DNA from: Muricauda sp. MAR_2010_75
GTDB lineage: Bacteria; Bacteroidota; Bacteroidia; Flavobacteriales; Flavobacteriaceae
DNA length: 64,000 bases
Direction: 5' to 3'
NCBI RefSeq assembly: GCF_000745185.1
Contig: NZ_JQNJ01000001.1
Coordinates: 4,260,501-4,324,500 of the forward strand
This document shows, piece by piece, positions 3,595 to 5,626 of the stretch (position 1 is its first letter; each line of letters opens with the position of its first letter). The translations under genes were made by a program, and so were the position numbers. The notes beneath the pieces were generated by a model, which was given only the letters and a program-made list of their open reading frames with translations, made no database searches and was not told the DNA's origin.

Positions 3595-3642
3595 TGTTTT
3601 TAGATTTTAAAGATTAATTGATTAACATTTGCCATAGTAGAT

Positions 3643-3660
3643 GCATTTGGCGTGCCAAAA
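3643..3660 (-). promoter_or_regulatory. Sigma-54 (-24/-12) promoter of osmC
   Basis: Read on the minus strand, TTGGCACG then CCAA then ATGCA gives GG (3656-3655), exactly ten bases, then GC (3644-3643). This matches the sigma-54 consensus TGGCACG-N4-TTGCW except for A in place of the first T. The predicted start of transcription is near 3631, giving a leader of about 37 bases before the osmC ATG at 3594. No -7 TAnnTTTG box is seen here. Confidence 0.85.
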
Positions 3661-3716
3661 AACATAATTAATTCTTTATCAACTAGTTACAATAATTTTA
3701 AGGCGTGGAAAGTATA

Positions 3717-3768
3717 ACGAGATTTCGTTTATTTACGAGATTTCGTTATAAAAATTACGAGATTTCGT
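3717..3768. repeat. Three 12-bp imperfect palindromes, probable activator binding sites
   Basis: The 12-mer ACGAGATTTCGT occurs three times without mismatch at 3717-3728, 3735-3746 and 3757-3768, with start-to-start spacings of 18 and 22 bases. Each copy has inverted arms ACGA and TCGT. They lie about 85-140 bases upstream of the predicted sigma-54 start site, the usual place for upstream activating sequences bound by AAA+ enhancer-binding proteins, and 5 bases from the stop of the gene for such a protein. Binding is inference. The repeats, their symmetry and their position are seen directly. Confidence 0.85.
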
Positions 3769-3772
3769 GAAA

Positions 3773-5626
3773 CTACACCGGACGGACAATGCCCAATGCC
3801 TTTATTTTGGAAGTCAATGTGGTGGGTGGCATGCCCAAAAGTACCGCGGCACCTTTTTCTCCTGAAATTTTCCAACGGGTCTGCTTTAAGGCTTTCAGGA
3901 TGTTCTCTTTTTCCAATTGAATCATTTCTTGGGCAGTGAAAATATGATCAGGTTCAACAAGGGCATGTCCCTCCACTACTCTGGGATTGGAATTAGGAAT
4001 GATGAATGACCAATCAATCTCCCCATTTTGGGAAACAATCACCGCGCGCTCCACTAAATTTTGGAGTTCCCGAACGTTTCCGGGCCAGGCATATTCCTGA
4101 AAAAGCTTTTTTTGCTCTTGGGTCAGTTTTTTTATTTTGCGGTTCAGTTTGGTGGAAAAGTGTTCCACCATGGCATCGGCAATAAGGGAAACATCATTTC
4201 CTCGATCTCTTAGGGCCGGAATTTCAATGGGAAATACATTCAATCGATAATAAAGGTCTTCCCGGAATTTTCCTTCTTTTGAGAATTGCAGTAAGTCTCG
4301 GTGCGAAGCCGCTATAATCCGTACATCCACTTTTTGGGTGGTGGAGCTTCCCACGGGGTCGAATTCCCCTTCCTGAATCACCCGCAGTAATTTGGGTTGA
4401 AGGTCCAACGGCAATTCCCCAATTTCATCCAAAAAGATAGTTCCTTTGTCCGCCAATAAAAATCGCCCTTTTCTGCTGCTCGTAGCTCCGGTAAAGGCTC
4501 CTTTTTCATGACCAAAGAGTTCACTTTCAATTAAATTGGCCGGAATTGCCCCACAATTGATTCGAATCAAAGGGCCTTTGCTCCTATTGCTGGCGGCATG
4601 GATGGCGCGTGCCACCAGTTCTTTACCCGTACCCGTTTCCCCGTGAATCAGTACGGTAGCTTCTGTCTGGGCCACCTGGGCAATCAGGTCCAATACTTTT
4701 TTCATGGATTTATGCTGGGCGATAATGCCGTGATCGTTGGTCAGCTCCTTGATTTCTTCCTGCAAGTACTCCGTTTGTGTTTCAAGCGAGCTGATTTTAT
4801 GTTCGGCCATCAAACGGTCATCAATATTGCGAAGAATCAAGGTATAAAACACTTCATTTTCGTCTCCGTAACTGCTCAGTGTACCTTCATGTAACGTTTC
4901 CTTTCCATCGGAGCCAATGACCTTGATGATTTTGGGCAAGTACGCATTCTTATTTTGCTCCGGGCTGGACTGTTTCGATTTGACCAAATTCTCCAATAGG
5001 TCAGCTCCAGCTTCATCCAAAAAGAACAGGACATTTCGCTGGAGCACTTCATCATTCTCCATGATGGCTTTGGCTGAATCATTGGCCAGAAGAATTCTAA
5101 AATTCCCATCGAACATAATAATGGCATCCATAGCACCATCAATAAGACCGGTCATCTTGGCATTGGCCAGTTCCACCTCCTTTTTGGATGAGGCCAATTG
5201 CTCTTGAATGACATCCAGTTCTCGATGTCTTTTGATAAGTACAGACATTATCCCTTTTACAAAGCCTTTGTCCGACTCCATTAAATTGGAAAAATGGGAA
5301 GTGGTTATCTTTAATACGGTAGTATTTTCCAAAGCGGTCACGGATACTGAACGTGGCTCTTCATCGATTAGCGCATATTCCCCAAAGCAATCCCCCTTAG
5401 ACAAAAAGCCATAGGAATGGTCCTTGTCGTGTACTTTTACTTTCCCCTGTAGAATTACATACATAGCATCGCCAACATCACCTTTTTCAATAATGCGGTT
5501 GTTCTTGATGTACCGCTCAAGTTCAGAGGTTTTGCTCAGTTCCAACAATGAGCTCTTTTCCACTTCGGAAAAAAAGGGCACTTCGGATAGAAAATCCAGC
5601 AATTCGTTACGTTCGGTTGAAGTCAT
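3773..5626 (-). CDS. Sigma-54-dependent activator: cNMP-binding, PAS, AAA+, Fis-type HTH
   Basis: A 617-residue bacterial enhancer-binding protein. Residues about 10-130 form a CRP-like cyclic-nucleotide-binding domain (VGDAMYVILQGKVKV, GDCFGEYALIDEEPRS). Residues about 155-270 form a PAS domain, followed by a coiled coil at about 272-297. Residues about 302-530 form the sigma-54-interacting AAA+ domain, with Walker A GETGTGKE (329-336), the sigma-54 contact loop GAFTGA (376-381) and Walker B GTIFLDEIGE (395-404). A Fis-type helix-turn-helix is at about 585-613. The intact GAFTGA loop means it should remodel sigma-54 closed complexes. No receiver domain is present, so input is probably a small ligand or redox signal at the cNMP or PAS domain instead of phosphorylation. 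The next gene on the strand, osmC, has a matching promoter and repeats. The adjacent oxyR fits a peroxide theme. Confidence 0.95.
   Translation of the reverse strand: MTSTERNELLDFLSEVPFFSEVEKSSLLELSKTSELERYIKNNRIIEKGDVGDAMYVILQGKVKVHDKDHSYGFLSKGDCFGEYALIDEEPRSVSVTALENTTVLKITTSHFSNLMESDKGFVKGIMSVLIKRHRELDVIQEQLASSKKEVELANAKMTGLIDGAMDAIIMFDGNFRILLANDSAKAIMENDEVLQRNVLFFLDEAGADLLENLVKSKQSSPEQNKNAYLPKIIKVIGSDGKETLHEGTLSSYGDENEVFYTLILRNIDDRLMAEHKISSLETQTEYLQEEIKELTNDHGIIAQHKSMKKVLDLIAQVAQTEATVLIHGETGTGKELVARAIHAASNRSKGPLIRINCGAIPANLIESELFGHEKGAFTGATSSRKGRFLLADKGTIFLDEIGELPLDLQPKLLRVIQEGEFDPVGSSTTQKVDVRIIAASHRDLLQFSKEGKFREDLYYRLNVFPIEIPALRDRGNDVSLIADAMVEHFSTKLNRKIKKLTQEQKKLFQEYAWPGNVRELQNLVERAVIVSQNGEIDWSFIIPNSNPRVVEGHALVEPDHIFTAQEMIQLEKENILKALKQTRWKISGEKGAAVLLGMPPTTLTSKIKALGIVRPV

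Follow-up and report, generated by a model that had tools for sequence, protein, structure and literature searches.

With NorR, the activator of norVW in enterobacteria, three tandem enhancer sites form the platform for a hexamer. NO is sensed there by the iron of a GAF domain, whereas the activator considered here possesses a cyclic-nucleotide-binding domain (CNBD). As described in the available portion of PMC4987338, NorR is a single-component activator of GAF/AAA+/Fis build that has enhancer sites and, at a local target, a sigma-54 promoter, an arrangement like that of the present locus, and its AAA+ domain is freed from repression by the effector; the NorR site, GT-N7-AC, is however unlike ours. 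The same portion gives the FhlA enhancer as CATTTCGTACGAAATG, which contains the half-site ACGAAAT/ATTTCGT that is found here as well, but with half-sites pointing the opposite way and with different targets. FisR of Acinetobacter, in turn, is persulfide-responsive and activates, through sigma-54, a sulfur operon with TauE among its genes (PMC7315123, in the part available), and TauE stands also under the present site array in two genera. The FisR operon is nevertheless one of SQR/PDO and of persulfide sensing, while the only N-terminal cysteine of our activator is Cys80. A direct link to persulfide sensing was considered and rejected, the evidence being circumstantial.

The individual components likewise have described relatives. 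CNBDs of the CRP/PKG type share with our activator both fold and phosphate-binding cassette, but here the CNBD is instead fused to an AAA+ sigma-54 activator. Ohr/OsmC thiol peroxidases share with our OsmC-like protein the OsmC domain and the first cysteine, but not the second, which is replaced by serine. A sigma-54 promoter ahead of an OsmC-like gene, indeed, is already published, for Bradyrhizobium sp. DOA9: the RpoNc sites in Table 1 of PMC13207237, as found in the available part, were filtered for RpoN-responsive genes and include that of an OsmC-like gene, TGGCACGCTCCATGC at -58, and TGGCACGCCAAATGC lies at about the same distance from the ATG here. For that gene, unlike for ours, the available part names no activator, enhancer, CNBD or cyclase tie. 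The activator domains of a Clostridiales survey include PAS, GAF, HPr, PrpR_N, ACT, CBS and Fer4 (available part of PMC6615313). The word OsmC is absent from the main text of the sigma-54 papers PMC12316311, PMC4641369, PMC2725144, PMC6615313, PMC3162934 and PMC7315123, and the available parts of PMC5701242, PMC10782981 and PMC10418997 mention OsmC with no tie to sigma-54. Our literature search, outside of which most subscription journals lie, returned, in those parts of papers available to it, neither an account of this activator or its enhancer nor a description of any CNBD-bearing sigma-54 activator.

The locus occupies one end of the window, i.e., of the whole stretch of 64,000 nucleotides that was analysed. 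An osmC-like gene of 183 aa (3043..3594, minus strand) is preceded by a predicted -24/-12 sigma-54 promoter, TTGGCACGCCAAATGC, which is of the GG-N10-GC form and is read on the minus strand from 3658 to 3643; the predicted start at 3631 would leave a 37-nt leader ahead of the osmC ATG (3594). Further upstream are three enhancer sites: site 1, the most upstream, at 3757..3768, a near-palindrome which reads ACGAAATCTCGT on the minus strand; site 2 at 3735..3746, 22 bp from site 1; and site 3 at 3717..3728, 18 bp from site 2 and starting 70 bp from the TTGG of the promoter. The sequence ACGAGATTTCGT is exact at all three, 86-137 bp upstream of 3631. Just past these, four bases from the nearest repeat, is the stop codon (3773-3775) of the activator gene (3773..5626, minus strand, 617 aa), which is assigned as a sigma-54 enhancer-binding protein by domain matches and a structural model. 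The preliminary description had thus read the promoter, the three perfect repeats, and the nearness of the activator gene correctly. It had also proposed looking for rpoN, which is present as a single gene (E 2.4e-51) alongside six genes with strong Sigma54_activat matches. An OxyR-like LysR regulator gene (5754..6695, plus strand) is divergent from the activator gene and is found at 20 of the 21 genus loci, the remaining one being at a contig end, and at 5/26 loci of other family genera. A scan of the window for tandem repeats and tRNAs gave nothing relevant; two short tandem repeats, at 12889-12925 (period 17) and 13503-13537 (period 14), were seen.

The OsmC-like product matches the OsmC domain PF02566 with 52 bits against a cut-off of 27.5. 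As had been described, this is a ‘Ser-type’ OsmC: Cys97 is kept and Ser165 replaces the second catalytic cysteine, in 51/51 distinct sequences, so that the two catalytic cysteines by which Ohr/OsmC peroxidases are recognised are not both present. The score against OsmC_like_Se (NF041052), 55.2, is below that model's cut-off of 95. The sole solved relative found is 2opl, which was deposited as a ‘Hypothetical protein’. In one Ohr, changing either cysteine to serine resulted in a drastic loss of activity (available part of PMC4486171), and a classical peroxidase role for this OsmC therefore is doubtful.

The reading that we consider probable is that of a locally acting sigma-54 switch in which a cyclase signal, via the CNBD activator, gives rise to transcription of osmC along with the adjacent gene for pyruvate:ferredoxin oxidoreductase (PFOR). 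That is, the class III cyclase of this genomic island would make a cyclic nucleotide, which the activator would bind with its N-terminal CNBD; this binding, together with the PAS domain, would free the AAA+ domain. Activator dimers would fill the three palindromic sites, with a hexamer assembling on the enhancer; the DNA would loop, and the GAFTGA loop would engage sigma-54 at -24/-12. Transcription would then begin near 3631, pass through osmC, and run on past a hairpin, perhaps at lower yield, into the PFOR gene. What was observed by computation is the parts of this switch, the order and conserved geometry in which they stand, and the fact that they are inherited together; from these we infer DNA binding, ligand, activation, and read-through into PFOR.

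That last step has the strongest competitor. The PFOR gene (nifJ; 1..2961, minus strand) continues past the left window edge and is 81 nt behind osmC, with a terminator-like or attenuator hairpin at 3000..3033 (minus strand) between the two. It could be that the regulator acts on osmC alone, with a true terminator making PFOR a separate unit and the gene order kept through co-inheritance, a reading to which we give a lesser though appreciable probability. The hairpin is strong and is found in 45/45 distinct loci (stem >=7, z < -2 versus mononucleotide shuffles), often with a short T-rich run following, and the fetched stretches of four related loci with GAF-type activators (L075, L076, L078 and L194; see below) contain neither PFOR nor cyclase. 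Against this, the osmC-PFOR gap is just 62-96 nt in 40/45 loci, stop and start codon included, and the roughly 40 nt that remain past the hairpin leave scant space for a separate PFOR promoter. PFOR also lies less than 1 kb behind osmC in 26/26 loci of other family genera, one with an intervening gene, though the site pattern served to pick these loci, and their relatedness keeps the genomes from being independent; it is behind osmC as well in the ten genus loci that were fetched with long flanks. PFOR is probably a second target of the switch, by way of the conserved hairpin. We take this hairpin for an attenuator, or for a protector of the mRNA end, by which osmC expression is set above that of PFOR, the rival being a true terminator.

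The signal is the other step at which readings diverge. The activator consists of a CNBD (residues 38-119), a long helix, a PAS domain (167-268), an AAA+ domain (301-468, the extent of the Sigma54_activat match) and a Fis-type HTH (570-610). The CNBD match, to cNMP_binding (PF00027), has 72.6 bits against a cut-off of 27.5, and HTH_8 has 27.3 against 22; the PAS_9 match is weak, i.e., under the Pfam cut-off, and is listed for several orthologues. The GAFTGA loop, described earlier as intact, starts at residue 376, and both it and Walker A are invariant in 50 distinct activator sequences. In having AAA+ motifs, a Fis-type HTH, tandem sites, a promoter and a genomic rpoN, this protein has what is expected of a sigma-54 enhancer-binding protein, but it is not a NifA, NorR or FhlA equivalog (NCBIfam scores of 355 vs 528.85, 350 vs 476 and 333 vs 830, respectively). 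A model of residues 1-290 (mean pLDDT 82, pTM 0.50) displays CNBD-type strands and helices, the long helix, and a PAS-like part; CNBD proteins make up the first 50 of its fold matches, including cGMP-dependent kinases and CRP-family regulators, which the CNBD matches in sequence as well. The phosphate-binding cassette (FGEY, D88, R92, S93; Glu83, Arg92 and Ser93 included) is invariant in 44/44. Just ahead of it is Cys80 (window 5387-5389), which every one of the 43 sequences in alignment A1 retains and which possibly serves as a redox input.

A candidate signal source lies just left of the window. This is a TPR-histidine kinase-receiver-cyclase protein (G000:C1:4256624-4260028), its gene tail-to-tail with that of PFOR. 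For the neighbour cyclase, the match to Guanylate_cyc (PF00211) has 72 bits against a cut-off of 21.9. A second, shorter class III cyclase-like gene (about 374 aa; L227:6817-7941) was seen near the first, also to the left of the window. Within the genus, 19/21 activator-bearing congeners have a class III cyclase at a distance of up to about 7 kb from the activator or osmC (with G014, on the osmC contig). Of the other two, G011 has no cyclase found near the locus, and in G038, where the locus is split over short contigs, none is in reach. The large form of this cyclase comprises frames of 873-1183 aa, the shortest on a short contig, and none is listed for the other 39 congeners, whose longest frame is 762 aa. 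In other genera of the family 24/26 loci have a cyclase, with none in reach at the remaining two; 11 are of the same type and 14 of another, cyclase-TPR, type, one locus possessing both, and 11 of the 14 cyclase-TPR genes are directly divergent from the activator. Two different cyclase types beside one CNBD activator are hard to explain unless these cyclases feed that activator. For the two types, respectively, scripts matched the metal-Asp motif in 19/21 and 16/16 neighbour cyclases and VNxxxR in 17/21 and 16/16.

At the base-specifying position of such cyclases, Glu is the guanylate and Lys the adenylate determinant. The neighbour cyclases have neither, possessing instead Gln in 21/21 and 16/16, which aligns with the Glu of 2w01 and the Lys of 6fht. 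The cyclase product, and even cyclase activity, consequently are uncertain, and the messenger may be other than plain cAMP or cGMP. One may suppose instead that the sigma-54 circuit is real but that the CNBD, having some other ligand or being structural, does not answer the neighbouring cyclase, the sensor then being PAS or another input. PAS is indeed the input domain that is common to the CNBD and GAF versions of the activator, the invariant cysteine beside the cassette would suit a redox input, the Gln just described fits as well, and CRP-family CNBDs can bind non-nucleotide ligands. We nevertheless view this as unlikely given the invariance of the three cassette residues, the adjoining of the locus by two distinct cyclase types in different genera, and the finding of the large cyclase in activator-bearing congeners only. 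A cyclic-nucleotide input, which we infer, is better supported than it was in the preliminary description, and the class III cyclase of the island is its likely source.

The DNA elements of the switch are conserved. To judge from the names of near relatives, the organism, a marine flavobacterium, falls in Allomuricauda/Flagellimonas (Muricauda). Among 60 genus genomes, taken from a 99-genome set of relatives, the activator has an orthologue in 21 (two cut by contig ends), and osmC is present at 75-100% identity in exactly those 21 (one cut); three weaker OsmC matches (39-47%) are found in G058, in G006, and as a second copy in G021. The co-occurrence has a Fisher p of 1e-16, a value which is overstated since the genomes are related. 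All 19 of the fetched genus loci with both genes, our own included, retain the three sites, their spacing, and the promoter. An absence of the repeats from relatives with the gene pair, which the preliminary description would have counted against its reading, is thus not seen, and sites and promoter stand out against intergenic DNA that is otherwise diverged. Geometry was scored over 48 activator-osmC intergenic regions, 44 from Flavobacteriaceae and 4 from others. In 43/44 of the former the site triplet scores 31-35 of 36, versus at most 26 for the best of 30 mononucleotide shuffles per region, with spacings of 22+18 bp (41 regions) or 21+18 bp (2) and with TTGG 68-70 bp from site 3. One region, L250, departs from this with a score of 24, which is no better than its shuffles; by another scan (L181) this locus has sites at 21+18, one of them poor and the outer one apparently overlapping the activator gene at its end. 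TGGCA is found in 48/48 regions, taking the best promoter match of each, and the full GG-N10-GC in 39.

It is on this fixed distance and conservation, and not on the motif alone, that the promoter assignment is based. That a chance promoter-like match merely adjoins unrelated short repeats, as the background frequency of the motif in the window (15 matches at <=2 mismatches vs 14.7 expected) would allow, has next to no probability and is already contradicted by a geometry that is kept at 43/44 family loci and matched in other phyla. Computational footprinting, co-occurrence and cross-phylum conservation together strongly support the earlier reading of activator, upstream sites, sigma-54 promoter and osmC as one circuit. 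Its description as ‘unusual’, on the other hand, did not hold, as this is instead a conserved island.

In its own genome the switch appears to act only locally. All 3 exact copies of the 12-mer ACGAGATTTCGT in the 4.42-Mb genome are at this locus; sites with one mismatch number 10 genome-wide versus 17 in a backwards control, i.e., no enrichment; and a strict site-pair pattern has no match elsewhere (control 0). The motif TTGGCAY-N5-WTGC is found 15 times versus 4 in the backwards control, but among these a site triplet (sites with <=2 mismatches) is near the osmC one only. A regulon elsewhere in this genome was rejected, there being neither a further site pair nor a motif-linked triplet, as was self-regulation of the activator, with no site at <=2 mismatches in the 5627-5753 gap.

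Across 299 Flavobacteriaceae genomes, a blind search with ACGAWATWTCGT-N6-ACGAWATWTCGT at <=3 mismatches matched 31 (backwards control, 9), at 35 places. Of these, 30 are at the osmC/activator locus, with osmC adjoining at 29, our own included. In G109 the activator adjoins and osmC is on another contig; both contigs (L190, L197) carry their own site array, and by eye a transposase-like frame follows the activator. At four other places the pattern precedes a TauE/SafE exporter (2), a methyltransferase and then a redoxin (1), or a redoxin-like lipoprotein (1, by eye), with three sites at 21-22 + 18 bp and TGGCA 68-70 bp from site 3. The array and TGGCAT motif ahead of the exporter are at L192:4348-5339 (G317) and L187:3978-4929 (G267), the latter with DsrE-like and rhodanese-like genes nearby (by eye); the array ahead of methyltransferase and redoxin is at L189:3393-4344 (G246), and that ahead of the lipoprotein at L191:3003-3756 (G317). 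The targets in G246 and the lipoprotein in G317 are possible further regulon members. From the TauE and redoxin targets outside our genus we would guess at a connection with sulfur or thiol stress, to which TauE in the FisR operon (PMC7315123) points as well. At one place (G238, contig C12) the pattern has no sensible target: a site pair with TTGGCACCAAAGTTGC (L195:970-1115) lies about 350 bp before a secreted-protein-like gene. Ahead of a large gene in the same stretch are one site and TTGGCATCTCATTTGC (L195:4211-4353), both behind the gene of an AAA+ activator (53% over residues 301-615).

Similar sites, promoter and osmC recur in four other genomes, namely one of Desulfobulbaceae, one of Acidobacteriota, one of Planctomycetota and one (G1101) of another Bacteroidota lineage. 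A search of genome contigs was swamped by other AAA+ activators; among its best 80 matches OsmC is beside 3, ranking first, second and fourth. In the first three lineages the OsmC gene comes directly after that of the activator, sites of this kind and a TGGCAC motif are present, and the osmC site pair is the only one found in each genome (N5 spacing, <=3 mismatches; control 0). G1101 (L269) has three sites, osmC, and a promoter with an imperfect -12. In the GAF-type loci L075, L076 and L269 site 3 and the promoter are 80-82 bp apart, i.e., about one helical turn more, while L078 has no triplet by the geometry script but a two-site pair by a separate scan. G058 (L194) and G252 (L270) each have a related activator gene and an osmC gene in divergent orientation, accompanied by one site and a motif that resembles the promoter. 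Where our activator has its CNBD these relatives have GAF: Pfam gives GAF-PAS-AAA+ for L075, L076 and L078, and for L269, L270 and L194 a clear PAS-AAA+ with GAF weak or missed.

In a midpoint-rooted tree of 55 AAA+/HTH sequences, for which the bootstrap is not fully settled, the 16 CNBD activators form one clade (100/99) that nests within a 98/98 clade containing also all six GAF-type osmC activators plus that of L268; the remaining 32 activators fall outside, and the inner forks are weaker (90/62, 91/77). This topology suggests that the output half is older and that the input changed once, on this sampling. L268 (G967) has a truncated-globin-like gene alongside (by eye), with no osmC and no clear site triplet in the stretch fetched. 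A 395-genome search of the phylum of G396 at E <=1e-120 returned the locus itself plus one activator outside the clade, so that, as far as this threshold shows, GAF-type activators seem sparse in that phylum, and a 395-genome search of Bacteroidota at E <=1e-108 found a close activator in 4 genomes only, i.e., our own, G252, G967 and G1101. Plasmid-borne activator-osmC pairs were rejected, there being none in three annotated matches examined; two osmC genes among those matches have no site or good promoter ahead.

The cyclic-nucleotide-gated activator with its dedicated cyclase may be one re-wiring of an old module, in which CNBD took the place of GAF and both cyclase and PFOR were recruited; the AAA+/HTH portion, ACGAAATnTCGT sites and one-cysteine OsmC of that module are common to at least four phyla, a proposal that could equally well prove wrong. 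If true, then second-messenger control would here be joined to sigma-54 enhancer logic, two things seldom met together, and the locus would represent a self-contained system, i.e., cyclase, receptor-activator, operator sites, promoter and target, for the CNBD gating of an AAA+ hexamer. A swappable GAF or CNBD input on a constant output would represent enhancer re-wiring with the DNA code kept. The switch would supply as well a regulatory clue to the OsmC branch in which the second cysteine is missing, and a way of approaching sigma-54 in Bacteroidota.
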